Shown in pieces: positions 37,835 to 52,072 of a stretch of 64,000 nucleotides of DNA. The position numbers and the translations under genes are program-made. Source of the DNA: Gemmatimonas phototrophica (GTDB taxonomy: Bacteria > Gemmatimonadota > Gemmatimonadetes > Gemmatimonadales > Gemmatimonadaceae); assembly GCF_000695095.2 (NCBI RefSeq), contig NZ_CP011454.1, forward strand, positions 1,984,001 to 2,048,000. Reading direction: 5' to 3'. Each line of letters opens with the position of its first letter. Within the stretch, counting starts at the first letter, position 1. Below the pieces are notes generated by a model, which searched no databases, was not told where the DNA came from, and saw nothing but the letters and a program-made list of their open reading frames with translations.

Positions 37835-37872
37835 GTCGAACGCCTCGCGTTCAACCGTACCACGCCAAACAC

Positions 37873-37904
37873 AACGGGCACCCCAATCGGGGTGCCCGTT
37901 TGTG
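37873..37904. terminator. Bidirectional terminator after groEL
   Basis: A perfect 12-bp stem, AACGGGCACCCC (37873-37884) and GGGGTGCCCGTT (37889-37900), with a 4-base loop; followed by TGTG on the plus strand and by GTGTTTGG on the minus strand. It can also end the minus-strand subunit operon that stops at 37989. Confidence 0.85.
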
Positions 37905-37905
37905 C

Positions 37906-37930
37906 ATTGATTCATTGATTGATTGATTCG
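37906..37930. repeat. Short ATTG/GATT tetranucleotide tract
   Basis: Four or five imperfect copies of ATTG/TTGA (37906-37930), AT-rich, between the groEL terminator and the end of the fibre operon. It is probably a simple repeat with no function in its own right; slippage here would not affect a gene. Confidence 0.6.
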
Positions 37931-37988
37931 CTCAAGCCATTGGCACGACCACGCGCACACGCGCCACGGCCCGCAGCCGTCAGGCCAG

Positions 37989-38537
37989 TCAGGGCAGTGG
38001 AACGACCCTGAACTGGAGGGCAGATGACAAACCCACCGCGTCAGGACGCTGCGACGTTGGACCACCTGCGGTAAAGCGGAGAGAGACCGGCACACCTGGC
38101 GTTGGTGTGGAGCCATCGCCGATAGCGAGCCAAGTCCCGCTCACCGGGAGGCCACTACCGTCCGTCGGCCACCAGCTAATCGGTGCCGTCACACCAACCG
38201 TGGGAGCCAGTCGCACCTGCAATTGCCAGCCACTGTTGCTGCGCAGCGTCACGGTGGCACGGAAGCACGTCAGGGGGGCACACCGATCAAGCGGGGCACC
38301 GCTTTCGGCGAACACCGGCTGTGTCGGTTCAAGCTTGAAAAACGCTCCGATGACCACACTGGTGACGGTCTCTATCGGCAGGGGCGCGCCGGTCGTCAGT
38401 CTCGGCGAAGGCTGGCTGACACCAGCGGCCGGGCTCATGGCCGCCCCCACCACCAAGCACACCGTGGCACATGTAGCGCGACGGCGGGAGACAGGGAGCG
38501 GGCGTCCGCAGTGCTGGCACACGGACCATCCCTTCAC
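37989..38537 (-). CDS. Secreted subunit-like protein, last gene of fibre operon 1
   Basis: 182 residues; GTG at 38537 overlaps the stop of the preceding gene (GTGA). The real start could be a few codons later, because a normal signal peptide (RRRATCATVCLVVGAAMSPAAG) begins only at ~17. The mature part is beta-rich with the short Cys pair DRCAPLTC and ends in SSALQFRVVPLP, like its counterpart in operon 2 (45402-45917, AKCAPGRC, ending LLQFRLVRQ). It sits at the same place, seventh in the operon. Probably a fibre subunit or tip component taken by the chaperone; the exact role is inferred. Confidence 0.65.
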   Translation of the reverse strand: MKGWSVCQHCGRPLPVSRRRATCATVCLVVGAAMSPAAGVSQPSPRLTTGAPLPIETVTSVVIGAFFKLEPTQPVFAESGAPLDRCAPLTCFRATVTLRSNSGWQLQVRLAPTVGVTAPISWWPTDGSGLPVSGTWLAIGDGSTPTPGVPVSLRFTAGGPTSQRPDAVGLSSALQFRVVPLP

Positions 38538-39109
38538 GGGGGACTCACCGAAAAGGAGACAGGGAGCGTGCAGTTCGCCTCCGACACCGGGCCATCTGTG
38601 AGCCAGCCCAGACCGACCCGCAAGAATACGTCACGCGGTTGCCCAGTCGTGAATGTTCCACCACTGAACACGGTTGTTGCCGAGAGACTGACCGGTGTCG
38701 TCCGCGTCGCGGAGGTCGTTCCCCATTGAATCGTCGAGGCACTCTTGTTGGTGCAGGAACCGGTCAGCGTTGCACTCAGCGCTTGCATTGAGACGCGCCA
38801 CGGGGCATTCGACTGCACGAGCAACTGAATCGACCCGCTGGCATTGAACATCCCGGCGGTGTAATCGTCCACGCCAAGCTGCCCGCTGGCTGGCGTAAGG
38901 GAGAAACTTGTTCCCGGGGTCACCACCAGACGACGCGTGGCCTGAATGGTCGAACTGATATTCACTTCAAGTCGGCAGGACGAATTGTTCGAGGTGCCGG
39001 TGACGCAGGTCCCTTGCGCCAAGGATACGCCCCACGGCGTCACGGCGAGCAGCAGCAGCCCAAGCACACGCATCAGCAGAGGGGTCGTGGACACCGGGGC
39101 GCGCCTCAT
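38534..39109 (-). CDS. Secreted subunit-like protein, gene 6 of fibre operon 1
   Basis: 191 residues with a signal peptide to SLAQG. The mature protein has a Cys pair CVTGTSNNSSC near its start and a second region with SCTNKSA, and it ends PVSEANCTLPVSFSVSPP. It matches the counterpart of operon 2 (45917-46498: SCTVLAKESERTC, ending CLLPLIFTVEPY). Predicted beta-sandwich, no membrane segment other than the signal peptide. Its start overlaps the stop of the usher-like gene (ATGA). Confidence 0.68.
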   Translation of the reverse strand: MRRAPVSTTPLLMRVLGLLLLAVTPWGVSLAQGTCVTGTSNNSSCRLEVNISSTIQATRRLVVTPGTSFSLTPASGQLGVDDYTAGMFNASGSIQLLVQSNAPWRVSMQALSATLTGSCTNKSASTIQWGTTSATRTTPVSLSATTVFSGGTFTTGQPRDVFLRVGLGWLTDGPVSEANCTLPVSFSVSPP

Positions 39110-42100
39110 TGTGCTCGCGGGCGAGATGCGGGAGACGGACGCTCGATCCGAGATCGAGGGGCTTTCCGCAACCGTCGCGTCGGTGCCGGCGGAGTGCCCG
39201 GCTGCATTCGGACTCCAGGCGAGGAGGCATCAAACGTTTTCACACGAATCGGACGCGCCCGCATGCTGATGGTCACCAGCTCAGGCGTATCCGCGCCACC
39301 TATATGCACCACCGGCTCAGCGTCGGACATGCTCAACGGTTCCTCGAGTGTCGAGGCGTCGACGCCAATGGTGTACCGGCCACTGGGTAGTGCTTCCAGA
39401 ACAAACCGTCCCGCCGTGTCGGCGCGGGCATAGAAGAGGCTCCCGACCGTATCGCGGGCAAACACCACGGCATCGGACAGCATCAGCGATCGCAAACGCA
39501 AGCTGTCGCTCCCACCCACATACAGGGCGACCCGAACGGGGCGAACAAATCGCAAAGCAACCGGTTCGCCATAGGTCACGTTCTGAGAGGCGGCGAGCAG
39601 TCCCACCGGGACAGTTCGTGCATCGAGGGACTGCTCTCGCTCAGCACAGCTGAAGCGTCCGCTATTGTCCGTCTGCAGCAGACGGGTGCCGCAACGGATG
39701 ACCACGCCTCCCACCCCACGCTCGTTGCGATCGCGGCGGCCGTTGCCATTGTCATCGCGAAAGACCTGATTGCGTGCGCCCGACATCAGGCGTGGGAGCA
39801 AGGTGGTGCGATCCACGCGAAGGGTGTACGCCATGGGGGTGCGGCGACCACCCGCAATCATGTTCATGAACGGGTTGCGCTCCGCGGCCAGGGTAATGGA
39901 GAGCCCCATTCGCAAATCCACCGTGGCCGCGGCCCGAGCCGACCAAAACGCTGGTCCGCTCGCGCCAATCTGCAGCCGCTGCACCTCGCCTTCAAACGAC
40001 AATGGCGATGAGAGGCGCGGACGCACCCGCTCGGCACGAATGTGCAGTGACTGCTGCGCTGGAAGATTGCCCGCTGCCGCCGAGAACTGCTGATAGGTCC
40101 AGTTGGCCTGCATCGTGCCGTGGGCAGTACCCCGGAGCAACGATACCGAATGATCCAGACGCCACTGCCGCGATTGCGTGTTGAAGGTACTGTCGGCGAG
40201 CGCACGGTCGATGCGCGACAGCGACGAACGTGTAATGACTGATGTCCCAAGCAGGGTGTGGGACCACATGCCGCCGCCGCTCACTTCCGTATTTCCCAGG
40301 CGCGTGTTTTCTACGGTTGAACGGAAGGTGCCCCCGCGGAGGTCAAGACCTAAGGTCCCGAATCGTGGCAGATCCACGGCAGGAGCCACCGACCACCCGC
40401 CGTTGTGCAGCGCACCCAGCAAGGGATTCGCATCACGTTGCCGCCAGCCGTTCACGGCCACAAACCCGCGTGACCCCAACGACCGCGATGCGGCGAGGCT
40501 CACCTCGTCTGTGGCCCGCGCGAAGCCGGCAGATCCGCCTGGCGCGTGAAGCACTCGTGCTTCCACAAAGGAGCGCGCGCCGGTGCGCTGGAAGGTGCTG
40601 GATACGCCCACGCCGCGCTGCAGACCAGCATCCCGATAGGCAACTTCCGTCTGCAATTGTGATCCACCGGCCTGCCCGATACCGGTCCGCACACCGTACG
40701 CCGTCAGGGTCCGACGCGTAAACTCATCATTGAGTCGGCTGCCAAACGCCGAGGCACGGAATCGTGATGAGGTAAAGCCCATCTCGGCACCTTGCAGACG
40801 CCCTGCGCCAATGGGGAGCAGGGAAGTGCTCATCGTCGTCCCGAGAGGGCGCAGATCGAAACCGCGGAGTACCAGACCGGCGCGTTCGATCGCCACCGCA
40901 CCACCCAGTCCCGCCAGGTTGTAACCGCCGAGTTCTGCTTGCGGCACCATGGCGCTACCCGCCTGGATGTGTAACGCCGGGTGCCGAAGCTCAAGAACCG
41001 GCGGACCGGTCAACATCCCCGAACGCGCCAGCAGCATCCCACTGGTCCCCGATGCGTCGAGCGCACCGGCATAGCTGAGTCGCCCATTGAGGATCGTGGA
41101 ATCACTCAAGTTGCCGGCAATCCCAACGGCATAGGCAGTCGCCCCCGGTTGACCAGCGGTGTGGCCACTGATCACCGAGGTGGTGACTCGGGTGCCCGCT
41201 TGCTCCCGGGCAAAATCACCCATGACATCCACCTGCAACTGGACCGTCGTGTCCCGCTCCCCGGGGCGCACCAGGCGCACGGGAAGCATGACCAGACCGC
41301 TGTTGGCCTGTGCAGGAATCCAGAGGCGCAGCGACACGGGAAGGCTTTGCCCTGGCGCGACGCGCTGGGCGCGACTCGCCGTGCGCACGTCGGCGCGCCA
41401 GTTCTGCGGAAGCCCAACGCCAACTGCGGCGAGTTCCTCGACGTTGCCGGCATTGGTCACCCGCAACGCCATCGACGTCCATCGTCCACGCGTGGCCAGC
41501 AACGACGTGGCCTCCATGGTAAGGCTGAGCTGGCGCCGGGTTGGCACGTTGAGCTCAATGGGGACCGATGCTGATATGGTACCCACCGAAAACTCCGCCG
41601 TGGCCGCGAGCGATCGCCCCGCCGGGGCGCGACGTGACACACGGAACGCCACCAGGATGGCCGTGTCCCGCACCGGGTTGATGCTGCCACTGATGGGACC
41701 GAGCACCTGCACATGACGACCGACCACCAGCCGGTAGGAGGCCGACCGCAACGTCATGGCCGCATCCAGGCGCACGGCGGCAGGAATGGGCACCCGAACA
41801 ACGGTGACCTCTTCACCTTTGGTATCGGCGCGCACTGGGATGGTGCCCGAATCACTGGCCACGCGATATGGCGCCCGCGCGGCGAACGCCTGACCAGCAG
41901 ACAGGGGCCGCGCCGGGACTGCCGAAACATTCGGGATGCCGTCGGACAATCCCATGGAACTGCGCGTGATACTGCGCGTGACGCTACGCGTGGCAAATGC
42001 TGTTTCGGCGTTGTTGCTCCACTGCGCTTGTGCCGCAGAGGCGCTGCCGGCGCAGAGAACGAGCGCGAGGGCAGCACGTTGCCCCAGGAGCCGTACCAGA

Positions 42101-42126
42101 GGGAAATCGGCCGCGGACATCGTCAT
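39106..42126 (-). CDS. Large usher-like outer-membrane protein, operon 1
   Basis: 1006 residues; ATG 42126 overlaps the preceding stop (ATGA); the frame extends upstream but only as a shadow. Signal peptide to AQAQ. Parts seen: an N-terminal Ig-like region (~50-320: RQLSLTMEATSLLATRGRW, ALRVTNAGNVEELAAVGVGLPQNW), a long stretch of alternating hydrophobic/polar strands (~330-770), typical of an outer-membrane beta-barrel, and a C-terminal domain at ~785 with FRDDNGNGRRDRNERGV, a calcium-binding SdrD-B-like pattern, then LPSGRYTIGVD. It follows the chaperone and a subunit gene, which is the usher position in chaperone-usher operons, but the classical FimD motifs were not seen. A paralogue with the same domain order is in operon 2. 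Confidence 0.7.
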   Translation of the reverse strand: MTMSAADFPLVRLLGQRAALALVLCAGSASAAQAQWSNNAETAFATRSVTRSITRSSMGLSDGIPNVSAVPARPLSAGQAFAARAPYRVASDSGTIPVRADTKGEEVTVVRVPIPAAVRLDAAMTLRSASYRLVVGRHVQVLGPISGSINPVRDTAILVAFRVSRRAPAGRSLAATAEFSVGTISASVPIELNVPTRRQLSLTMEATSLLATRGRWTSMALRVTNAGNVEELAAVGVGLPQNWRADVRTASRAQRVAPGQSLPVSLRLWIPAQANSGLVMLPVRLVRPGERDTTVQLQVDVMGDFAREQAGTRVTTSVISGHTAGQPGATAYAVGIAGNLSDSTILNGRLSYAGALDASGTSGMLLARSGMLTGPPVLELRHPALHIQAGSAMVPQAELGGYNLAGLGGAVAIERAGLVLRGFDLRPLGTTMSTSLLPIGAGRLQGAEMGFTSSRFRASAFGSRLNDEFTRRTLTAYGVRTGIGQAGGSQLQTEVAYRDAGLQRGVGVSSTFQRTGARSFVEARVLHAPGGSAGFARATDEVSLAASRSLGSRGFVAVNGWRQRDANPLLGALHNGGWSVAPAVDLPRFGTLGLDLRGGTFRSTVENTRLGNTEVSGGGMWSHTLLGTSVITRSSLSRIDRALADSTFNTQSRQWRLDHSVSLLRGTAHGTMQANWTYQQFSAAAGNLPAQQSLHIRAERVRPRLSSPLSFEGEVQRLQIGASGPAFWSARAAATVDLRMGLSITLAAERNPFMNMIAGGRRTPMAYTLRVDRTTLLPRLMSGARNQVFRDDNGNGRRDRNERGVGGVVIRCGTRLLQTDNSGRFSCAEREQSLDARTVPVGLLAASQNVTYGEPVALRFVRPVRVALYVGGSDSLRLRSLMLSDAVVFARDTVGSLFYARADTAGRFVLEALPSGRYTIGVDASTLEEPLSMSDAEPVVHIGGADTPELVTISMRARPIRVKTFDASSPGVRMQPGTPPAPTRRLRKAPRSRIERPSPASRPRAQ

Positions 42127-42635
42127 CGCCCCTGACGCAACAGGAACCGCATCTCGGTCGACGTCGTACCAATCGGCGTTGTTGCCGGATTCCAGCTCAA
42201 CGGGCGGCACACCCATACCACAAAGGTGGTGGCGCCGTTGGTTTGCATCAGAACGGGAGCCTGCGAAGCGTTCGGCGAGGAAACGCCCGAAACATCCAGG
42301 GGGCAGTCAGCAATCGACGTGGGTGCCGCGCCGCCGATGCGAAGGCGAAGCCCACCTGGCGGTTGCCCTTGTGCACCGAGGGTCACTTGACACGGCGTCC
42401 GACCACACTTCAGCACCGATATCGTGAAGCTGCCAAGGACAGCCACGCCATTGGCAAAGTCTGAAGCGGACGGGATTGCTGAAACAGGGGAGTACGTTAC
42501 GGTGAGACAGCTGTTCGAAATTCCCGCCACGCACGCTTGCGCGTCTGAGACGGAAGGCCGGCCGGCCAGCGCAAACGTGCCCGTCGCTATCGCGACAAGC
42601 ATGCGGCGCAACGTGACGGGACGGCCGAACACCAT
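42123..42635 (-). CDS. Secreted subunit-like protein, gene 4 of fibre operon 1
   Basis: 170 residues; signal peptide to SVSDAQ. A Cys pair CVAGISNSC and LKCGRTPC in the middle are seen, and the C-terminus TSTEMRFLLRQGR is strand-like. It sits between the chaperone gene and the usher-like gene, as does its operon 2 counterpart (49363-49884). Its stop overlaps the next start. Probably a fibre subunit of the spore-coat-U-like type, with low sequence conservation. Confidence 0.65.
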   Translation of the reverse strand: MVFGRPVTLRRMLVAIATGTFALAGRPSVSDAQACVAGISNSCLTVTYSPVSAIPSASDFANGVAVLGSFTISVLKCGRTPCQVTLGAQGQPPGGLRLRIGGAAPTSIADCPLDVSGVSSPNASQAPVLMQTNGATTFVVWVCRPLSWNPATTPIGTTSTEMRFLLRQGR

Positions 42636-42637
42636 GC

Positions 42638-43459
42638 TCAGCGTACCTCGTGAGTGTACATGCCCGCGGCAATCTCACTGCCGCCGTAGTCCACGACACT
42701 GATCAACAGGTACCGCCCCGCCGGTAGCGTGGGCAAAACTGCCGTGGCGTGCATGGTGGCGCCTGGCAGTGCGTACATGGGAGGGAGATCGACCGTCTGC
42801 ACGAGGCTGTTGTCTTCACGACGAATCTCAATGCGGGCCTTGGTCACGAAATGACGCGCGCCCTTGTTGGCAAAGGCGACAATGGCCACATCCTGATCAC
42901 GTCCATTCGACTTCGTACGCGCGACCGACAATCCTTCCACTTCGCCATGGAGCGTGAGTCCTTCGGGCGCCACATACACCTTGAGCCCCGAGCGGATGTT
43001 GTACAGCAATTGACGCCCATTGGCCTGCGCGCGTGGTGCCGGCGTTTCGACAACCACCAGCGACCAGCATTCCTTGGCCCTCGATGCTGGACCGGTATAA
43101 TCGATGCGTACGCTTTGTGTTTCCCCAGGCTTGAGCGTCAGCGCCTGCGGAAAGACCTGCAGCGAAGGGGCGCAACTTCCGGGCACGGTACCCGCGGGGA
43201 AGAACCGGTTGTTGCCATCGGGGGCTCGATCCCAGTCTTCAAGACGCACTACGGCCTGTGCGGCCGTCTGGCCGTCATTGCGGACGGTCAGGACACCGCT
43301 CCGCTGGTCCGTCCCGTCAGGGCGCAGAAACAGATCGAGCTTGTCGATGGCCAGCTGAGCGCTGGCACTGGACGGCACAAGCGCCGTCAGTGCGGCCACC
43401 AGAACGAAACGCGGCATGACACGCGACGTACGAAGAGGGGCTGGCGGAGTGAAAGTCAT
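42638..43459 (-). CDS. PapD-like pilus assembly chaperone, operon 1
   Basis: 273 residues; ATG 43459 overlaps the preceding stop (ATGA), a signal peptide follows to SASAQ. PapD-like two-Ig-domain pattern: LAIDKLDLFLRPDGTDQRSG (A/B strand), VFPQALTLKPGETQSVRIDY and LLYNIRSGLKVYVAP (G1-strand region, with the Lys that binds the subunit C-terminus). The closing PAGRYLLISVVDYGGSE... recurs in the operon 2 paralogue. Chaperone of archaic (Csu/CupE-type) fibre systems: it captures subunits in the periplasm by donor-strand complementation and hands them to the usher. Confidence 0.86.
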   Translation of the reverse strand: MTFTPPAPLRTSRVMPRFVLVAALTALVPSSASAQLAIDKLDLFLRPDGTDQRSGVLTVRNDGQTAAQAVVRLEDWDRAPDGNNRFFPAGTVPGSCAPSLQVFPQALTLKPGETQSVRIDYTGPASRAKECWSLVVVETPAPRAQANGRQLLYNIRSGLKVYVAPEGLTLHGEVEGLSVARTKSNGRDQDVAIVAFANKGARHFVTKARIEIRREDNSLVQTVDLPPMYALPGATMHATAVLPTLPAGRYLLISVVDYGGSEIAAGMYTHEVR

Positions 43460-43995
43460 GGGGAAGTGAGCGTAAGGTTCACAGGGAGCGTGTAGGCACC
43501 CGGCGGACTGCCGGTCCATTGCCACAGCGTCCGATAGAACAGAGAAATCGTTTGCCCCGCCGTGGCCGGAGCCGCTGTGCCGGACGCGGGCCAAATGGTC
43601 GTGGCGCTCGATGAGCTGGTCCACGGACCGCCCGCCGTTCGGGCCCAGCGAAGATCTGCCGACGATTTCGCTGGATTGCTCGACGCGCCGGTGTACTGCC
43701 AGGTCGCCGCCGCCGCTTGCACCGTCACCCGGTACGGAGCGTTGGCCAGCACGGTAAGGACTGGACCTGGAGCGTCCTTCAAGCCCGCCGCAAAGTCTGC
43801 CGCTGTAAGGGCCGGCACGACGGTGGTGGCCTGACTCAATGACAGGCGAAACACCTCTGGTCGCCCCAGGCGGAGCGTGACCGTCACGGAGCAGGAGGTG
43901 CCCCCATTGCAGGCCGCCTGAGCCGATGCGGTGCGCGGAGCGAACGCTCCCAGCACCAGCACCAACCACACAGGGGCAGCAAGGGCGTGCAACAT
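43456..43995 (-). CDS. Secreted fibre subunit, gene 2 of operon 1
   Basis: 179 residues from ATG 43995, which starts a clean signal peptide (MLHALAAPVWLVLVLGAF...ASAQ); an ATG at 44061 adds 22 residues before it. The Cys pair ACNGGTSC opens the mature protein and the C-terminus is PPGAYTLPVNLTLTSP, the spore-coat-U/SCPU-like ending. Its counterpart in operon 2 (50669-51214) ends PPGYYAMPIQITLVAP. Its stop overlaps the chaperone start. Confidence 0.78.
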   Translation of the reverse strand: MLHALAAPVWLVLVLGAFAPRTASAQAACNGGTSCSVTVTLRLGRPEVFRLSLSQATTVVPALTAADFAAGLKDAPGPVLTVLANAPYRVTVQAAAATWQYTGASSNPAKSSADLRWARTAGGPWTSSSSATTIWPASGTAAPATAGQTISLFYRTLWQWTGSPPGAYTLPVNLTLTSP

Positions 43996-44092
43996 CCTCG
44001 ACCTATGACGAGTGACGTTCCCCAACAGGAAGCGGGCACCGCACTTCGCGTGCACGATCATGACCGGGCGACCCCGACGACCCGGGCGGCGT

Positions 44093-44110
44093 CATGCGCG
44101 TGTGCGCATG
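44093..44110 (-). other. Hairpin between subunit genes 1 and 2 of fibre operon 1
   Basis: CATGCGC (44093-44099) and GCGCATG (44104-44110) form a 7-bp palindrome with a 4-base loop, in the 134-base gap between the first subunit gene (stop 44130) and the next start (43995). The matching genes in operon 2 overlap instead. An mRNA-stabilising or partial-termination structure after the first subunit gene would raise its amount over the distal genes. Its role is inferred. Confidence 0.5.
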
Positions 44111-44129
44111 CGCCACCCGGACAATCAGG

Positions 44130-44675
44130 TCACGGACTGGACAGCGTATAGTTGATCGCCAGCGAGTACGAACCCGGCACGTCGCTGCCCCAGCTGTACA
44201 GCACATTGTAGCCAATGTTGACCAGCGAGGCCGAAGTGGCGGCCGTCGACGTGAACACAGTCTGTCCCGCGGTGTTGCTCAGCGTCAGAAAGGTGGACGG
44301 GTTGGCCGGCAGGAAAATGCGCAGGTCCGTGGCCGGCTTGGCATAGGGTCCCGACCAGGCGGCGGTGGCCGCCGTTGCCGTTACAGTGACACCGGCGTTG
44401 GCACTCACGGTCAATGCCGTGGGGTCCGTGGTGCTCTTGCCACCAGGGGCGCCGAAGTCTTCAGCCGTAGGCGAAGGCAGCGTCGTGGCCGTGGTGATTT
44501 CCATGCGCGCCACCCACGGAATCGTGGCCGATACCGTGTTACGGACGAAGCAAGCACTGGCAGCGGCGCTGGGAGTGCCACCAGTGCAGTTGGCGGTATT
44601 CGTGGCTTGCGCCTGAGCGGTTCCCGCCAGGACGGTCGACATGGCGACCGCGGCGATGATCCGAGTGACCTTCAT
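44130..44675 (-). CDS. Secreted fibre subunit, first gene of operon 1
   Basis: 181 residues; ATG 44675 has CCGGAGTAGATCG upstream (GGAG, eight bases). Signal peptide MKVTRIIAAVAMSTVLAGTAQAQ. The mature protein carries a Cys pair NCTGGTPSAAASAC, then VRNTVSATIPWVARMEITT, and ends VPGSYSLAINYTLSSP. It is the likely major subunit because it is first and is followed by a hairpin. Counterpart in operon 2 is 51211-51762 (ends LPGTYDATVTYTLTAP). A spore-coat-U (SCPU)-type beta-sandwich is the best guess. Confidence 0.8.
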   Translation of the reverse strand: MKVTRIIAAVAMSTVLAGTAQAQATNTANCTGGTPSAAASACFVRNTVSATIPWVARMEITTATTLPSPTAEDFGAPGGKSTTDPTALTVSANAGVTVTATAATAAWSGPYAKPATDLRIFLPANPSTFLTLSNTAGQTVFTSTAATSASLVNIGYNVLYSWGSDVPGSYSLAINYTLSSP

Positions 44676-44903
44676 CGATCTACTCCGGAAGTAGGGTGTG
44701 GTCGGGGGGATTCCCCGTCTGGCTGCCCGGCGTTGGTATGGGGGGGCCGGGAACGTGATAGCCACCTCATAGAAGATCTGCCCCGGTTGTTCGTCACAAA
44801 AACTTGAATGCGTAAAAGGTCGTACCCAGCTTCCGGAAAATTGCAGATTCGCGTGATAGCAGTGCCAGCGTTGCTATTGAACAGCCAGCGTCGTCTCCCC
44901 ACT

Positions 44904-45362
44904 GTGACGATCATTTCAATCCCGGTCCGGCGCGCCGTTAGTTCGCTAAGTGTATCAATAGCAACAGCTTGCCTACTGTCTGCCTGTCTCCCGTCAACCA
45001 GCGAACCCCCCGGTGTCACACCGGTGGAAGGGCAATGGGACGTGTCGGGGCTGTCTGCAAGTGGGGCAGGGGGCACATTTCTGGGGGGCCTCACCCTGCG
45101 CAGCACCTCCGCCAGTGGATTTACCGGCTCCTATGACGTCCTGGAAACGTCAGCCCAGGGACAGCAACGACGAGTGGCCGGGCCAGTTGGCGGCCGCATG
45201 GCTGGTGCCACGACGGTCGAGTTCGACGTGACGCTCGGCGGCAGTACGCGCCGTCATGTCGCAAGCGTCGTGGGCGATTCGCTGCGGGGCAGTTGGTTCG
45301 ATGTCGCCACGGCCGGATCCGTGGAATCGTCCGGCTCGTTTCGGGCCATACGAAAAAAGTAG
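44904..45362 (+). CDS. Small lipoprotein between the two fibre operons
   Basis: 152 residues from GTG 44904, which gives a lipoprotein signal peptide ending in LLSAC; an ATG at 44808 would add 32 residues with no signal-peptide character. The mature part repeats short beta-type units (GTFLGGLTLRSTSASGFTGSYDVLE, TVEFDVTLGGSTRRHVASVVGDSLRGSW) and ends in a basic RAIRKK. The pattern resembles small secreted beta-sandwich proteins that recur in Gemmatimonadota-like genomes, but I recognise no family. It is on the strand opposite to both operons and divergent from operon 1; it might be a tail piece, a surface anchor or unrelated. Confidence 0.6.
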   Translation: MTIISIPVRRAVSSLSVSIATACLLSACLPSTSEPPGVTPVEGQWDVSGLSASGAGGTFLGGLTLRSTSASGFTGSYDVLETSAQGQQRRVAGPVGGRMAGATTVEFDVTLGGSTRRHVASVVGDSLRGSWFDVATAGSVESSGSFRAIRKK

Positions 45363-45401
45363 CGCGCCCGTTCGCCGCCGATGGTCTCCGGCAGCGTACC
45401 G

Positions 45402-45917
45402 CTACTGACGAACCAACCGGAATTGCAGGAGCGAGGCGATGTCGAGCTCACTTGGCAGCCGCCCACCTGGTCCTTTGAGTCGTGCACCGTAGAGGGTCAC
45501 CTCAACCACCTGGGTGCGGGTCGCAGCTCCGCCCTGCAGCACGCTACTCCACACCATTGCGTTGAGATCTGCTACCGGGACGGCCGGAGCATTGATACTG
45601 CTGATCGCCAGGGAAAACCCTTGCGGTGGTCCCCACAGCTTGCTCTCCAGGCGCCACGCGGCATTCGCCTTGGCCTGTACCATCACGGAAAAACAGCGCC
45701 CTGGTGCGCACTTCGCCCGCTTCGGCGCAATCACCGAAATACCGGCCGTCCGTGCGTCGTGAACGAAGGGCACGGCCATGGAGGCGCTGGAGACTGTCCG
45801 AGGCTGGCCTTGCACCTGCTGAACCGGGCGAGACTGGCCCAACAAAGACGCGCCCACCAAGGCGAACGAGACCACCGACACGCCACACACCATCATCACC
45901 GCACGGCCATGGCGCAT
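45402..45917 (-). CDS. Secreted subunit-like protein, last gene of fibre operon 2
   Basis: 171 residues; ATG 45917 overlaps the preceding stop (TGATG). The signal peptide-like N-terminus is RHGRAVMMVCGVSVVSFALVG. A short Cys pair AKCAPGRC follows in the mature part and the C-terminus is ASLLQFRLVRQ. The operon 1 counterpart (37989-38537) has DRCAPLTC and ends QFRVVPLP, so the two are homologous despite low identity. Possibly a tip protein. Confidence 0.65.
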   Translation of the reverse strand: MRHGRAVMMVCGVSVVSFALVGASLLGQSRPVQQVQGQPRTVSSASMAVPFVHDARTAGISVIAPKRAKCAPGRCFSVMVQAKANAAWRLESKLWGPPQGFSLAISSINAPAVPVADLNAMVWSSVLQGGAATRTQVVEVTLYGARLKGPGGRLPSELDIASLLQFRLVRQ

Positions 45918-46498
45918 CAGTATGGCTCGACCGTAAAAATGAGAGGGAGCAGGCAGGTTGCGGCAGGTGCGTCGCTGGCCCAATTCAGCCCCACCCGGAA
46001 ATGCACGGTGCCAGCACCGCCGCCCGTCGGACTCGCCTGGGTGAACAACAACTGGCCTGTGCCGGTACTCGGGAGCGCGTCCGTTGCGGTCGATGTCGTC
46101 GTGCCCACGGTAACGGAAGACGCCGGTTTATTGTTGCAGCCGCCAGTCAGGGTCGCAGTTGCGCTGCGCACATAGATGCGGATGTTCGCGTTGGTCCGCC
46201 ACGTGAGCGTGAGAGGAGACGCCGGAACCGCGAATCCTCGTGCAAAGTCATCGGCCGTGATTATGCCGTTCGCCGGCGCCAGGGCGTACGACGCAGATGG
46301 CGCCTCCATCTGTGCCGTCACGGGGATTCTTGCCAGCGGTTCAAAAGTGGCCGAACAGGTGCGCTCACTTTCCTTCGCGAGGACAGTACACGAAATACTT
46401 TGCGCTTCGGCCAACGCCGGGAGGAGAAAACACCCGAACACCAGCAGGCGCGTGGCCGCAGGGTGCAAACGTAGAAGTTGGCGAAGAAACCGTCTCAT
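45917..46498 (-). CDS. Secreted subunit-like protein, gene 6 of fibre operon 2
   Basis: 193 residues, ATG 46498 overlapping the usher-like stop (ATGA). Signal peptide to ALAEAQ. Two Cys pairs (SCTVLAKESERTC; GGCNNKPASS), and the ending ATCLLPLIFTVEPY matches the operon 1 counterpart (NCTLPVSFSVSPP). Mature protein is beta-rich. Its position after the usher-like gene is the same in both operons. Confidence 0.68.
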   Translation of the reverse strand: MRRFLRQLLRLHPAATRLLVFGCFLLPALAEAQSISCTVLAKESERTCSATFEPLARIPVTAQMEAPSASYALAPANGIITADDFARGFAVPASPLTLTWRTNANIRIYVRSATATLTGGCNNKPASSVTVGTTTSTATDALPSTGTGQLLFTQASPTGGGAGTVHFRVGLNWASDAPAATCLLPLIFTVEPY

Positions 46499-49362
46499 GA
46501 TTTCGGTGGCATCGGGGCAAGGGTCTTCAGACGCAGGGGACGCGGCCGGACGTCAACAGTGAGCAAGGCTGGTGTCGCTTGCCCGGACACCACGATCTCC
46601 GGCGGGGCGCCCACCAGCGTTGCGGGTTCACGCATCGCACCGGGGTCGAAGTCGAGGACGTAATGCCCCGCGGGCAACGCGTCGAAAATAAACCGGCCAT
46701 CCGTCTCCATCCGCGCTTGCCACCGCGTTCCCTGATCATCGCGCACGCTGAGGATCGCCAGTCGCAATTCACTCGCTGCCAGTCGCGTGGAGTCGGCCGC
46801 GGATACCCGCAGCGCGACCACGATCGGCTGGACGTGCTGGAGCGCAACGTCGTGTGGGCCGTCAATGTTCGCAGGGGCGACGAGCCCAAGAGGGACTGTT
46901 CGCAAGTCAAGACTGCTGCGCAGATGGCCGGGACAGCTGAACATCCCCTGAAGATCCGTGGTGCTGGCGACCCCGGCGCACTCAATGGCAATGGCTGGAA
47001 GCGGTTCATCGCCACCATCAAAGCGTTGATTGCCGTTATGATCGACAAAGACCCGACGCCGCCCGCTGGCCCCGCGCCTGAACTGCGGGAGACGGGCTCG
47101 CTGCTCCAGTCGAACGCCATACGTCATGGGCGGTGGGCCACCCGTCAGCAGTCGAAGAAACGGATTGCGATCGGATGTAATCACCACCCGCGTGGTGCCC
47201 GGCAGTGGGATCGCCACTTCACTATGCACCATCCATCCGCCAGCCCTGTCGGCCGCCGACAGCGCACGCTGGGCGTCGAGCATGAGTTCCACCGGCCGGT
47301 CGAAGAGGTGGGCAATGGTCAGCCGGTCCATCCGGACACTCACGATATCCTGCCGTGCTACCCCCATCGCGATGCCCTGAAAGCCGAGCGCCGCCCACGA
47401 GACATCAATCGTACCGCGTGCGTGGCGCACCCCCAGCCTGACCTGATGCTCGCCACGACGCCCGCGCGCATTTCGAATACTGAAGCTGTCAGCCGACGTA
47501 CGTCGCGCCAGCACGCCGTACGATGTCCGCACCCGGGCGTACCAGATGCCCGTCTGCAGATCCGCACTGATCGCTCCGGTCTGCTCGTCGTTGTGATAGC
47601 CAATAGGTCCACTCTGAACGGCAAACGTGGAGCCTCGCAACTCGGCATTGAGAATCCCCCACGACGTGGGCGACCAACTCGGGGTCACAAACCATCCCAC
47701 GGTTTGCATGCGTCCGATCGCCGAGGCAGCATCATGCTGCAGCCACCCCCCGCTGGCCACCTGCGTAGTGGCTGAAAAACGATGGGAGAGATTGCCGGAT
47801 GCTTCACTGCCGGCTCTGGCGAAGCGCTGATTCGTCCCGGGTGCATGCACCACGCGCACATCAAACGCCGAGGTCGCCGTCTGCCGTGAGTAGGCGGCCG
47901 ACGCACCGGCACTTCGTCGATGGCCCTGCACGAATGACGATTGCTCATAGGGCGATCCGGGAAGGGCCAGCGAGCTGCCATCAAGGTTCCCGAGCGACCG
48001 CACGGCGGCGGCGGCAGACAATTGCCCGCCGCCGAGGCTCAGGTCAGATCCGTAGAGTGTGAGTGACCTGACGCGTTGCCACATGCGCGCATCATCGACC
48101 GCTGCCGCTTCAAGGCCCACTCGGCCACTCCAGACGCCTCGATCCAGATGCGCACCGGCCAATGTCCCGCGGCCGGTGCCCGGCAACCCGTGCATGGCCC
48201 GCATCTGGCCAAATGGCACACCACCAAATCCGCCGAGGCGCCAACGCCGACGGTTCCACGATACCTCGCTCCCGTATCCCGCCACGAAGGCTCCCGCGGG
48301 ATCGCGCAGGCCAACATTCAGCGCGCCCGCGCTGATCCCGCCGGACGGCATCTGGAGCGATAACATCGGAGGCATCGTCAGGAGCCCCGCGCGAGCCAGT
48401 CCGAAGGCCGCGGCCTGATCCTGGCTATACCCAAACGTGCCTCGAAGATCGATTTGCACCGAGTCGGTGAGCTGCCCGTGCATTGCGAGACCGTAGCCCG
48501 CTGCTGGCGAAGCCGTCGGGGTATGAATCGCCATGCTTGTCAGGTCGACCGTTACCCCCTGCTGAACTTCGGATGGCACCGTGATACTGATGCTCAGCGG
48601 GGCCTCCGCCACGACCACCCCTTCGCTGAGCAGGACGACCCGCGAGGGATGGAGGCCAACGGTCGCCCCCGCCGGTATCCGCCAGCGCAACACGGCTTCC
48701 TGCGTGCTGCCAGACGGAGCACTCACGAGAGAATCCGTGAGGCTTTTCCATCCGATCGGCAGCCGCAGCCCCAATCGCAGTAACGGCGTGTGATTGCCTT
48801 GATTGCTGATGCGGACCCGTACCGAGGCCCAACTGCCGGCGGATACGGCAATGCGCGGTGTTGTCACCACCAGACTCAGTTTGTTCACGCGCGGGACTTC
48901 AATGACCACCGCCGTGGTTACGCTTGCCGACGCACTGCGAAAGGTGACCAGTGCCACTTCAGTGCTGCCTGCGTCCTGACGTTGGCTGAGGGCCACGGTC
49001 ACTGGCACCGACGTGCGACCGCGATCCAGCGGCAGCACACGGTCCAACGCCGGGCCAAGAATTCGGGTGCCGCTGCTTTGCGTTACGCTGTAGCTGATGG
49101 CCGCCTGTGCAGAGGCGGCGGCGTCTCCTGGCACAATAGGAACGGGAACGCGCACGACCGCAACACCACCCGGCGCAATGGACGCGGTGATGGGGGCTGT
49201 TCGAGTTGGCGCGTCGTCGTTTGGGCGTGCCGCCGTGGCCTCTGTTACCGCGACGTCCGTACGGAACGCGGTCGGACGTTGGGCGTTCAGCTGCGCAGGG
49301 AAGGACGCGCACCACAGTGCCATCACACCCAGAAGGACGCGACTCTTCTGCCTGTCGCGCAT
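46495..49362 (-). CDS. Large usher-like outer-membrane protein, operon 2
   Basis: 955 residues; ATG directly follows the preceding stop (TAAATG). Signal peptide to LNAQ. Same layout as the operon 1 paralogue (39106-42126): N-terminal Ig-like region (NKLSLVVTTPRIAVSAGSWA, NQGNHTPLLRLGLRLPIGW), a long beta-barrel-like middle, the NPF segment DRNPFLRLLTGG before the tail, and a C-terminal domain at ~769 with VFVDHNGNQRFDGGDEPL, then LPAGHYVLDFD. The N-terminal and C-terminal domains align well, the barrel less so, as expected for surface-exposed loops. Believed to form the outer-membrane pore that assembles the fibre; no FimD motif was found, so 'usher-like' is inferred. Confidence 0.7.
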   Translation of the reverse strand: MRDRQKSRVLLGVMALWCASFPAQLNAQRPTAFRTDVAVTEATAARPNDDAPTRTAPITASIAPGGVAVVRVPVPIVPGDAAASAQAAISYSVTQSSGTRILGPALDRVLPLDRGRTSVPVTVALSQRQDAGSTEVALVTFRSASASVTTAVVIEVPRVNKLSLVVTTPRIAVSAGSWASVRVRISNQGNHTPLLRLGLRLPIGWKSLTDSLVSAPSGSTQEAVLRWRIPAGATVGLHPSRVVLLSEGVVVAEAPLSISITVPSEVQQGVTVDLTSMAIHTPTASPAAGYGLAMHGQLTDSVQIDLRGTFGYSQDQAAAFGLARAGLLTMPPMLSLQMPSGGISAGALNVGLRDPAGAFVAGYGSEVSWNRRRWRLGGFGGVPFGQMRAMHGLPGTGRGTLAGAHLDRGVWSGRVGLEAAAVDDARMWQRVRSLTLYGSDLSLGGGQLSAAAAVRSLGNLDGSSLALPGSPYEQSSFVQGHRRSAGASAAYSRQTATSAFDVRVVHAPGTNQRFARAGSEASGNLSHRFSATTQVASGGWLQHDAASAIGRMQTVGWFVTPSWSPTSWGILNAELRGSTFAVQSGPIGYHNDEQTGAISADLQTGIWYARVRTSYGVLARRTSADSFSIRNARGRRGEHQVRLGVRHARGTIDVSWAALGFQGIAMGVARQDIVSVRMDRLTIAHLFDRPVELMLDAQRALSAADRAGGWMVHSEVAIPLPGTTRVVITSDRNPFLRLLTGGPPPMTYGVRLEQRARLPQFRRGASGRRRVFVDHNGNQRFDGGDEPLPAIAIECAGVASTTDLQGMFSCPGHLRSSLDLRTVPLGLVAPANIDGPHDVALQHVQPIVVALRVSAADSTRLAASELRLAILSVRDDQGTRWQARMETDGRFIFDALPAGHYVLDFDPGAMREPATLVGAPPEIVVSGQATPALLTVDVRPRPLRLKTLAPMPPKS

Positions 49363-49884
49363 TTACTCTCTCACCACGCGGAAGTACAGCGTTGGCGTGT
49401 ATCGGGCGGGCGCGGTGGACCAACCCACCACATAGCAGAGCACAAAACTGGCCTGGCCGCTCGCTCCGCCGTTGATGGCGGTTACGGTGAGCACCGCGGG
49501 AAAGGCCGTGCTGGCGAGCGGTGGCGTTGTCGATACCGCCACGGGATTGGTGCAGGCCGCGGCATTGACCCCCCAACGCAGGTCCGTGGCAGAGAGCGTG
49601 GACCCACCGGCGGTGACGGAAATGTGCGCGCTGCACGTCCGCGTGCCGCCGCGGCGTTCGCAATTGCTGATCGATGCGGTCATCTGTCGGACCACCGCGA
49701 TCCCGCTGGAGAGCGCTGTGGCCGTGACCAACGTGTCAATCGCACCACTCACGACGGTGAGGGTTTGTGCGTGAACGGGAACGGCAAAAAACACCGCGGC
49801 GGCAAAACTCCACGCGAGGTACCGGGGACGCACGTGCAGATCCCCCAGCAGACGGCAAGCGCGCCGGCGCCACATCACGGACAT
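49363..49884 (-). CDS. Secreted subunit-like protein, gene 4 of fibre operon 2
   Basis: 173 residues; ATG 49884 overlaps the chaperone stop (TGATG). Signal peptide after a 20-residue basic start (WSFAAAVFFAVPVHAQ). Cys pair SNCERRGGTRTC, then a beta-rich sequence, ending PARYTPTLYFRVVRE. It corresponds to 42123-42635 of operon 1 by position and by the C-terminal strand. Confidence 0.66.
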   Translation of the reverse strand: MSVMWRRRACRLLGDLHVRPRYLAWSFAAAVFFAVPVHAQTLTVVSGAIDTLVTATALSSGIAVVRQMTASISNCERRGGTRTCSAHISVTAGGSTLSATDLRWGVNAAACTNPVAVSTTPPLASTAFPAVLTVTAINGGASGQASFVLCYVVGWSTAPARYTPTLYFRVVRE

Positions 49885-50663
49885 CAGCGGACCTCGAATT
49901 CCCGCTGGGCGGCCGCGTACTCGGCGCCGCCGTAATCGAAAATGGCCAGCACCAGGTAGCGCCCGGGGGGCAAGGCCGCCAGCGACCGACCCACACGCAT
50001 AGTGGCGCCGGGCAGTGCATACACATCGGGAAGGGTGGCGGATGAGACCACGCTGTTATCATCGCGTCGCACTTCAAGCCGTCCTTGTGCCTTCACTCGA
50101 CGGGAGCCTTCGTTGCGATACAGTACCGCGACCGTCAGCGAATCCGGTGAGGTCGTGGTGACATCAACAGACACGACATCGCCCCCGCCTTGAGCCCCCG
50201 GCGGTGTGACGTAGACTTTAAGGCCCATCCGCATGGTGAAGCGCAGGGCACCTCGTACTTGCGACGGTGCGGACGCGTCCTGCACGACTACCAGGCTGGT
50301 GCATTCCCGCTCACGCGCCCCGCCAGTGTATTCAACGCGAACCGTTTGCACTTCCCCAGGCGCCAGACTCAAGGTCCGGGGAAACACCTGCAGGTCGGTG
50401 CCGCAGCTCAGCGGCTGACTGCCGAGCGGGAAGAACCGATTGGCGCCATCACCGGCACGATCCCAATCCTCGATCTGCACCATCCCCTGAACCCGCGCCG
50501 TACCCGCATTGCGAACGGTCAGCAATCCGGTGCGCGCCTGTGCAGGACCAGTGGGCGCGAGATCAAGTTCGCCACGGTCAATGGAAAGCTGCGCGGTGGC
50601 CACGGTCGGCAGGAACACGCACAGCATGGCGACCGTCGTCGGACGCCAAAGCGGAGAGAGCAT
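49884..50663 (-). CDS. PapD-like pilus assembly chaperone, operon 2
   Basis: 259 residues from ATG 50663 (five bases after the preceding stop). Signal peptide to VATAQ, then two Ig-like domains: LSIDRGELDLAPTGPAQARTG, VFPRTLSLAPGEVQTVRVEY and FTMRMGLKVYVTPPG (G1-like strand with Lys). The C-terminus (ALPGATMRVGRSLAALPPGRYLVLAIFDYGGAEYAAA) aligns closely with the operon 1 chaperone. It should hold subunits in the periplasm and pass them to the usher-like protein. Confidence 0.87.
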   Translation of the reverse strand: MLSPLWRPTTVAMLCVFLPTVATAQLSIDRGELDLAPTGPAQARTGLLTVRNAGTARVQGMVQIEDWDRAGDGANRFFPLGSQPLSCGTDLQVFPRTLSLAPGEVQTVRVEYTGGARERECTSLVVVQDASAPSQVRGALRFTMRMGLKVYVTPPGAQGGGDVVSVDVTTTSPDSLTVAVLYRNEGSRRVKAQGRLEVRRDDNSVVSSATLPDVYALPGATMRVGRSLAALPPGRYLVLAIFDYGGAEYAAAQREFEVR

Positions 50664-50668
50664 GAGGG

Positions 50669-51214
50669 TCAGGGGGCAACCAGTGTGATCTGTATCGGCA
50701 TGGCGTAGTAACCGGGCGGCGTATCGCCCCAGCGCCACTGCACACGAAATTCCAGCGTCCTCGTTGTTTCCGTGCTCCCAGGCAGCACACCGGCCACAAG
50801 CGCCGCCTGACTGCGACCAATCGGTTGCCAGGGAAGACTTGTGGTGCGCCACTCCAGATCACCCACCGGCTTTGACGGATCGGCAAAGGACCCGGTGTAC
50901 GCCCACTGACTCTCGACAGACGCCAGTTGCAGGGTGAATGCGAAGTTGGCACGGGCCGTCACGGTGGGGCCGGCAACCGATTGGGTTCCGGCCTGAATGA
51001 CGCTCGCCGTGACCTGACCAACCGAAGTGGTTGGTGAGGACACGGTTAACGTCGCCGCATGAGGCAGGGATACGGTTGCATCAACGGCGATCGTGCAACT
51101 GGCGGTGTTCAGCTGCGTGCACGTGCTCTGGGCCCCCACCGGGGGCGCAACCCACAGGGAAACAGCGAGGAGGAGGCGCATCACGCGATGCGCGCCCTCC
51201 CCGCGACCCTTCAC
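50669..51214 (-). CDS. Secreted fibre subunit, gene 2 of operon 2
   Basis: 181 residues from GTG 51214, which overlaps the preceding stop (GTGA); ATG 51181 would give the same mature protein. Signal peptide to PPVGAQ. Cys pair TCTQLNTASC, beta-rich mature part, ending DTPPGYYAMPIQITLVAP. Its homologue in operon 1 is 43456-43995. The gene is directly coupled to the first subunit gene, unlike in operon 1. Confidence 0.76.
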   Translation of the reverse strand: MKGRGEGAHRVMRLLLAVSLWVAPPVGAQSTCTQLNTASCTIAVDATVSLPHAATLTVSSPTTSVGQVTASVIQAGTQSVAGPTVTARANFAFTLQLASVESQWAYTGSFADPSKPVGDLEWRTTSLPWQPIGRSQAALVAGVLPGSTETTRTLEFRVQWRWGDTPPGYYAMPIQITLVAP

Positions 51215-51762
51215 GGAGCGGTCAGCGTGTAGGTCACCGTGGCGTCATACGTGCCCGGCAAATCCTTCGTCCAGTCATACCGGACCCGGAACCACAACGG
51301 CAGTGTCCGCGTGCTGGTCGGCGTCGCCGTCGTGCTGGAAGCACCGGCAATCACCACACCCGACGACAGCGCGACAAAATCCGCCGAATTGTTGGCCGTC
51401 GCAATCTCGAGATCGCCCGTAGCCTTCGTGTAGCCGCTGACGGTGTTGAAACCACTGGACGTCGCCGTGATGACGTAGCCGAAATTGCTCTGGACCGTGA
51501 GTGTCGGGCCGGTCACGCTGGCCGAGACGCCGGCATCCATGTTCGCCACCGTGGCCGCCGGAAGCGTCACGGACGACGTCGAATGGTTGACGGTCGCGAG
51601 ATACGGCACGAGGGCCGAAAACGTGTTCGTGACCGCGCAGGCCGTGCTGTTGAAATCGGCCTTCGCGGTTTGGTTGCAGGACGCCGTCAGCGTCTGCGCT
51701 TCGAGTGAACCCGCGGCCAGCAACATCGCGGCCGACACCAGGAGGATTCGGGTATGACGCAT
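51211..51762 (-). CDS. Secreted fibre subunit, first gene of operon 2
   Basis: 183 residues; ATG 51762 with GGAG ten bases upstream. Signal peptide MRHTRILLVSAAMLLAAGSLEAQ. The mature part has a Cys pair SCNQTAKADFNSTAC followed by VTNTFSALVPYLATVNHST, and ends LPGTYDATVTYTLTAP, as in the SCPU-type ending. It is the paralogue of 44130-44675 in operon 1. Likely the major subunit. Confidence 0.8.
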   Translation of the reverse strand: MRHTRILLVSAAMLLAAGSLEAQTLTASCNQTAKADFNSTACAVTNTFSALVPYLATVNHSTSSVTLPAATVANMDAGVSASVTGPTLTVQSNFGYVITATSSGFNTVSGYTKATGDLEIATANNSADFVALSSGVVIAGASSTTATPTSTRTLPLWFRVRYDWTKDLPGTYDATVTYTLTAP

Positions 51763-52072
51763 GTAAAGCAAACTCCGGACTGGTAAGTGAGGGGGGACTT
51801 CCACCCATCGTCGGGTGGCAGTCTCGACCGTTGCCAGATCCTTGCCGTTACGGCCGAGTGCGCCACGTGAATGACCGTTCACGATCGCAAATGACTGCCC
51901 CGTAACACCTTGTGTAATTAAGAACAGTTCATTTTTCGTCGTGGCACAAAAATTGGCTCTGTTGAATCCACGCAACGGCGTGTTGCGGATACTGTTGGAT
52001 TAAAGAATACTTCATGTTGTATAGAAGTACCTTAAGTACATGATTGGCAAGCGGTTGTACGGCTGTGTCCGG
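51763..52072 (-). other. Upstream region of fibre operon 2 (no gene seen)
   Basis: 310 bases between the first subunit gene of operon 2 and the end of the MBL gene; both neighbours are on the minus strand. More AT-rich than the rest of the window. On the minus strand it holds a TATACA box (near 52022), the AATTTTTGTG block also seen before operon 1 (51945-51952), and a 6-bp hairpin CCACCC/GGGTGG at 51801-51818 in the 5' leader. No complete -35/-10 pair was found, and no reading frame is protein-like. Confidence 0.55.

Follow-up and report, generated by a model that had tools for sequence, protein, structure and literature searches.

Chaperone-usher assembly is usually split into three pathways, classical, archaic and alternative, whose ushers and chaperones carry recognisable signatures. 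For a stretch of 64,000 nucleotides of the Gemmatimonas phototrophica genome (the window), the original prediction was of two seven-gene operons with the same gene order, encoding a divergent chaperone-usher-type pathway. The operons are borne out by the list of open reading frames: all 14 genes lie on the minus strand, operon 2 at 51762-45402 and operon 1 at 44675-37989, and each operon reads S1, S2, chaperone, S4, barrel, S6 and S7, where S stands for a small subunit (Table 1). The inventory of seven genes was confirmed as well, but it had overlooked a lipoprotein gene on the plus strand between the operons. The pathway itself is supported by chaperone homology, subunit fold and conserved gene order, and we consider it likely (probability about 0.8) that each operon encodes a chaperone-usher-like pathway building a surface fibre.

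Table 1. Genes of the two operons and the divergent lipoprotein gene (positions in the window)
Feature	Position	Strand	Assignment and basis
Operon 2 gene 1	51211..51762	-	Class S1 subunit, probable major pilin; signal-like N terminus, CX12C, Gly at -14, S1 profile
Operon 2 gene 2	50669..51181	-	Class S2 subunit; S2 profile, CX7C at mature N terminus, Gly at -14
Operon 2 gene 3	49884..50663	-	PapD-like periplasmic chaperone; PapD_N E 0.0029 (below cut-off), 48% to operon 1 chaperone
Operon 2 gene 4	49363..49884	-	Class S4 subunit between chaperone and barrel; S4 profile
Operon 2 gene 5	46495..49362	-	Usher-like outer-membrane barrel, 955 aa; AlphaFold2 model, Foldseek, VIA; no PF00577
Operon 2 gene 6	45917..46498	-	Class S6 subunit; S6 profile
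Operon 2 gene 7	45402..45917	-	Class S7 subunit; S7 profile
Eighth component	44808..45362	+	Lipoprotein (lipobox LLSAC), transcribed away from operon 1; may start at an internal codon
Operon 1 gene 1	44130..44675	-	Class S1 subunit; S1 profile, CX11C, Gly at -14
Operon 1 gene 2	43456..43995	-	Class S2 subunit; AlphaFold2 model, chaperone-usher pilin fold
Operon 1 gene 3	42638..43459	-	PapD-like chaperone; PapD_N 28.6 bits
Operon 1 gene 4	42123..42635	-	Class S4 subunit; S4 profile
Operon 1 gene 5	39106..42126	-	Usher-like barrel, 1006 aa; NPCBM_assoc/NEW3 over cut-off, weak SdrD_B and CarboxypepD_reg
Operon 1 gene 6	38534..39109	-	Class S6 subunit; S6 profile
Operon 1 gene 7	37989..38537	-	Class S7 subunit, start unsure; S7 profile

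Adjacent genes within the operons overlap by 1-4 bp or are spaced by no more than ~35 bp, the exception being a gap of ~130 bp between genes 1 and 2 of operon 1. Start codons were refined for the operon 1 barrel (ATG 42126, giving 1006 aa and a 4-bp overlap with gene 4), the operon 2 chaperone (ATG 50663) and operon 2 gene 7 (ATG 45917); gene 2 probably starts at ATG 43995 in operon 1 and at ATG 51181 in operon 2, and the start of operon 1 gene 7 is unsure. Signal peptides of the small proteins were assessed by eye, and scans for promoters and terminators gave signals not above those of shuffled sequence. The expectation that the two operons are paralogous gene by gene held at 30-48% identity. 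BLASTP of each gene against its counterpart gave 35% for gene 1, 31% for gene 2, 48% for the chaperone, 35% for gene 6 and 31% for gene 7, and the two barrels are 30-33% identical. No BLASTP match was found between the gene 4 copies, which are linked only by both scoring on one S4 profile whose seed includes them.

The chaperone has a sequence link to known systems. The operon 1 protein passes the Pfam PapD_N model (28.6 bits against a cut-off of 23 bits, E 1.5e-6), and the operon 2 protein falls below the cut-off (E 0.0029). In profile-profile comparison, the family profile (33 rows) matched nine E. coli K-12 chaperones over 208 columns and both domains (probability 95.9, E 6e-9); against PDB sequences it matched CupB2 (E 0.0025) and PapD (E 0.02). 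Judged by sequence, the predicted PapD-like chaperone is therefore upheld over both domains. The superfamily-invariant proline (P104) is present in all 35 chaperones of the family and in 3/3 from Deinococcus, and C96, C131, K160 and R213 are likewise invariant in the 35. The three Deinococcus chaperones keep the proline and Y250 and lack the lysine and the cysteines. In the profile alignment, as opposed to a structural one, K160 (35/35) aligns with the classical G1-strand anchor lysine (PapD Lys112), and the position of PapD Arg8 is Glu/Asp in 32/35, leaving the classical basic pair with Lys112 incomplete. The signature arginine of archaic and alternative chaperones is Arg89 of CsuC and EcpB (PMC4654587); by a weak alignment to EcpB, the equivalent position is Ser/Asp/Ala in 32/35. 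Because the classical and the archaic/alternative arginine positions are both substituted, the anchor for the subunit carboxylate would not be of a described kind, and the residues that form it can be proposed from these alignments. An orphan chaperone of the same family was found in another genome (G032, L032:8541-9554), and neither a barrel nor a subunit turned up around it.

The small subunits are more heterogeneous than was foreseen. A CX(4-13)C pair is present in all ten, as had been claimed, but it is not one single feature: the pair lies at the mature N terminus in genes 1, 2 and 6 and internally in operon 2 gene 4 and both copies of gene 7, and operon 1 gene 4 has both kinds. The AlphaFold2 model of operon 1 gene 2 (pLDDT 75.7) predicts a beta sandwich that starts near residue 55, with low confidence up to about residue 50 and pLDDT below 50 for residues 1-31. 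In this model the mature N terminus, a Cys pair followed by V-x-V-x-L-x-L, is unpacked, as expected for a donor strand. The top fold matches were TLP-1a (9ikj)/TLP-1b and then chaperone-usher pilins, including many of Fim, Pap and CfaB; Csu was matched with Z 8.8 and rmsd 2.9 over 118 residues, the Z values being middling and tied. The predicted donor-strand-type subunit fold is thus reproduced in the single subunit modelled. A subunit profile found no match among PDB sequences. A glycine at position -14 from the C terminus occurs in 22/22 S1 and 41/42 S2 proteins (63/64 class-1/2 subunits) and in 9/10 of the E. coli K-12 pilins checked; it is mostly absent from S4, S6 and S7. S1 is probably the major pilin, since it is duplicated in two related loci (L028 and L029), and the products of genes 6 and 7 may be minor subunits or sit at the tip. 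Among the operon genes we saw no two-domain adhesin, and adhesion would therefore lie in the fibre itself. In a related locus, the gene immediately 3' of the last subunit (L033:14474-14926) is type IV pilin-like (GFTLIELLIVVVIIG).

For the large barrel protein, the AlphaFold2 model of the operon 2 copy, built from 13 sequences with middling confidence (mean pLDDT 75, pTM 0.52), predicts two Ig domains (Ig-like strands at 55-246), about 26-27 long strands at 249-758 and C-terminal beta domains that are Ig/CnaB-like. No inter-strand segment of the model exceeds ~22 residues, so that it contains no plug-sized insert. The first eleven Foldseek matches were FimD/PapC (E to 4e-13), with low TM-scores (0.2-0.3 of the query). 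VIA-align placed MtrB, whose barrel has 26 strands, first (Z 20.2, 439 residues) and PapC second (Z 15.0, 373 residues), with many unrelated porins near Z 14. In the operon 1 barrel, Pfam NPCBM_assoc/NEW3 is over the cut-off in the N-terminal part, and SdrD_B and CarboxypepD_reg match weakly at the C terminus.

Searches of the barrels for usher sequence signatures were negative. The usher model PF00577 matched neither window barrel nor any of 41 relatives. PapC_N and PapC_C were absent from the window barrels (a FimD control passes all three models), as were TcfC and CooC_C (an EcpC control has both). The barrel profile matched neither nine K-12 ushers including EcpC, nor EcpC alone, nor an usher set that included a PF00577 usher from Gemmatimonadota. 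PF00577 is over the cut-off in only 1/395 Gemmatimonadota genomes; this sole match lies in a genuine archaic operon with SCPU, PapD_N and PF00577 (G103, L134:6667-10324). The C-terminal domains of the window barrels are shared with DUF4402-type ushers (98.9%, E 3e-17), which in turn align with classical ushers across 577 columns (E 3e-10). For the barrel part itself these searches detected no homology to ushers, and its predicted usher likeness rests on gene order and on fold comparison, in which Foldseek puts ushers and VIA-align puts MtrB first.

These observations bear on three other explanations. It is rather unlikely that the operons encode an archaic system (sigma type, as in Csu/CupE/spore coat U) with an usher and pilins too diverged for the Pfam models to recognise. 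In favour of this, Csu comes next after TLP in fit among the named pilins, archaic systems are those reported in Deinococcus-Thermus (PMC4654587), and the phylum does contain a true archaic operon (L134; SCPU 2e-28, PapD_N 5e-13, Usher 9e-17). The same Pfam models do detect that operon, however, whereas SCPU and PF00577 are unmatched in the window proteins, and the CsuC Arg89 position holds Ser/Asp/Ala in window-family chaperones. We are equally doubtful of a hybrid in which a PapD-type chaperone and pilins work with a recruited barrel of other origin, MtrB-like or another porin, as the pore through which the fibre leaves. The clear lead of MtrB among the structural matches, the model without a plug-sized insert and the missing sequence match to ushers all speak for such a recruitment, yet Foldseek puts FimD/PapC first, and the C-terminal domains match DUF4402-type ushers that themselves match classical ones. 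The archaic and the hybrid explanations are versions of one question, a drifted usher or a separate barrel, and both overlap with the chaperone-usher-like pathway that we prefer.

A third explanation dispenses with the fibre: the barrel would conduct electrons or act as a transporter, and the small proteins, soluble or at the surface, would bind carbohydrates and have a chaperone-like partner. The structural match to MtrB is consistent with this, as are the NEW3/NPCBM-type Ig domains matched here, which also occur in carbohydrate-active proteins. Against it, the operons contain no cytochrome or enzyme gene, the chaperone is PapD-type and the subunits show a pilin fold (in the operon 1 gene 2 model), the glycine at -14 and N-terminal extensions, and we regard it as highly improbable.

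The lipoprotein has homologues in ~30 related loci, in most of which its gene stands between those of the barrel and the final subunit. Members of the window's genus (L025, L026, L028, L029, L030) and L092 instead have the gene divergent and upstream of S1. The protein has no match in Pfam. In the window, a single lipoprotein serves, or at least accompanies, both operons.

The module is flanked by groEL and a metallo-beta-lactamase gene. These are 14.2 kb apart in the window, 7.3 kb in G009, ~2.4 kb in G008 and ~70-350 bp in eight congeners (G021, G029, G026, G022, G016, G001, G005 and G013); in G004 they are on separate contigs. Whole-operon gain or loss at a single site, in either direction, explains these spacings. 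The junctions with the two flanking genes are at 37835-37988 and 51763-52072 of the window; no flanking repeat was noted there by eye. A terminator-like hairpin follows groEL and is found at empty sites too. The barrel tree joins operon 1 to L025/L026 (100/100) and operon 2 to L028/L029 (100/99), all of them congeners with one operon each in the same slot as the window, and a chaperone tree made by a quick method gave the same grouping. The 'duplicated' pathway of the original prediction is therefore right in that the operons are paralogous, but a recent tandem duplication is ruled out by the barrel tree, which splits them among congeners. Since they group with different congeners, operons 1 and 2 represent two old, co-resident lineages.

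Near-full-length barrel matches were found in 32/395 sampled Gemmatimonadota genomes, and split matches in 6 more (32-38 in total); these counts are a manual tally of the match table that leaves out many matches to the SdrD_B-like segment alone. The order S-chaperone-S4-barrel-(lipoprotein)-S is conserved at more than 30 loci in several families, which answers the proposed check of gene order in relatives. The complete seven-gene order occurs in L025, L026 and L027, and in L029 with S1 doubled. A scan of named genomes gave Gemmatimonadota alone among the identified records; searches of plasmids then found Deinococcus, and confinement to one phylum was rejected. On the Deinococcus plasmids, which carry a subunit-chaperone-subunit-barrel core, a ~291-aa protein comes first; a chaperone follows (E 1e-37 to 9e-32), then a ~180-aa protein and lastly a barrel (E 5e-29 to 4e-15). 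D. deserti has a shorter form. These proteins are annotated mostly as 'hypothetical protein' or as 'carboxypeptidase-like regulatory domain'.

Several other loci were noted in the course of these searches. The D. deserti chaperone (L126:7923-8693) is labelled 'FimB/Mfa2 family fimbrial subunit', with Mfa2 at 21.7 bits against a cut-off of 21.2, which is probably a misannotation. Close to two of the Deinococcus loci there is a large regulator-like gene (L123:5092-7299 and L124:14087-16333), and the two genes resemble each other. A candidate third copy at G000:C1:2958418 was rejected as a chaperone-usher operon. It is a small protein that looks secreted and is encoded next to a GH3 glycosidase gene (L006:7972-8709; G000:C1:2958418-2958666); its likeness to the chaperone is confined to the second domain of the latter (E 1.5e-8), and its relatives (L034, L035, L038, L039) adjoin a ~900-aa gene in several congeners. 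In the part of the literature covered, searches for DUF4402, Gemmatimonadota chaperone-usher systems, Gemmatimonas fimbriae and Deinococcus ushers found no description of the system.

In the chaperone-usher-like pathway that we propose, the five small subunits would be exported by Sec as incomplete Ig folds. The PapD-like chaperone would lend its G1 strand and grip the subunit C terminus between its domains, and the chaperone-subunit complexes may dock on the periplasmic Ig domains of the barrel. The N-terminal extension of the next subunit, in which alternating hydrophobic residues come after a loop with the Cys pair, would then displace the chaperone strand, and the fibre would grow outward through the barrel. 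The analysis demonstrates the operon structure, the homology of the chaperone and the conserved gene set, and structure models predict the pilin fold and the barrel; donor-strand exchange, fibre formation and export, and with them a mode of working like that of the classical, archaic and alternative pathways, are what we infer. The lipoprotein may help to seat or gate the barrel, or may anchor the fibre. As two old lineages, operons 1 and 2 would reasonably be expected to yield two different fibres.

For each of the classical, archaic and alternative pathways a defining test came out negative, and we therefore assign the pathway to none of them. We tentatively raise, as a possibility still short of an even chance, that it is a fourth chaperone-usher-type class in Gemmatimonadota and Deinococcota, with a plug-less, ~26-stranded pore not derived from classical ushers, a Cys-loop donor strand (in Gemmatimonadota), different chaperone residues holding the subunit C terminus, and a lipoprotein as standard in the Gemmatimonadota form. 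If true, the pairing of chaperone and pilin logic with a plug-less, unrecognisable barrel would test how much of an usher donor-strand-driven export needs, and would give two little-studied phyla a surface-fibre system.

With archaic systems (Csu, CupE, spore coat U), the window operons share several single-domain pilins, of which the modelled one has a fold close to CsuA/B, one PapD-like chaperone and one large outer-membrane barrel. They differ in having no SCPU (PF05229), PF00577, chaperone Arg89 or CsuE-type two-domain tip adhesin, and in adding a lipoprotein and a Cys pair in the donor extension. The likeness to classical systems (Fim, Pap) lies in the PapD-type chaperone with its G1-strand anchor lysine, the pilin glycine at -14 (S1, S2) and the fold, whereas the chaperone has Glu/Asp at the PapD Arg8 position and the barrel is without PF00577, PapC_N, PapC_C and, in the model, a plug-sized insert. 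Alternative systems (CFA/I, Ecp) likewise have ushers that end in a carboxypeptidase-regulatory-like domain, but the window barrels have no TcfC or CooC_C, the chaperone no Arg89, and EcpA lacks the -14 glycine that S1 and S2 have. The MtrB porin of MtrCAB is the best structural match of the window barrel by VIA-align, but MtrB has no Ig domains, and the genetic context is another one, the window operons having no adjacent multihaem cytochromes. Chaperone-usher operons of the DUF4402 type are frequent in Gemmatimonadota (PF14352 in 51/298 genomes; for example L133:6563-10829, also L040, L112, L036 and L037). They differ in their DUF4402 pilins, in an usher of ~816-850 aa that still matches classical ushers (one matches PF00577 weakly), and in that no lipoprotein or extra subunits were seen, but they share with the window operons the order subunit-chaperone-subunit-usher, a related chaperone (profile E 2e-9) and related usher C-terminal domains.
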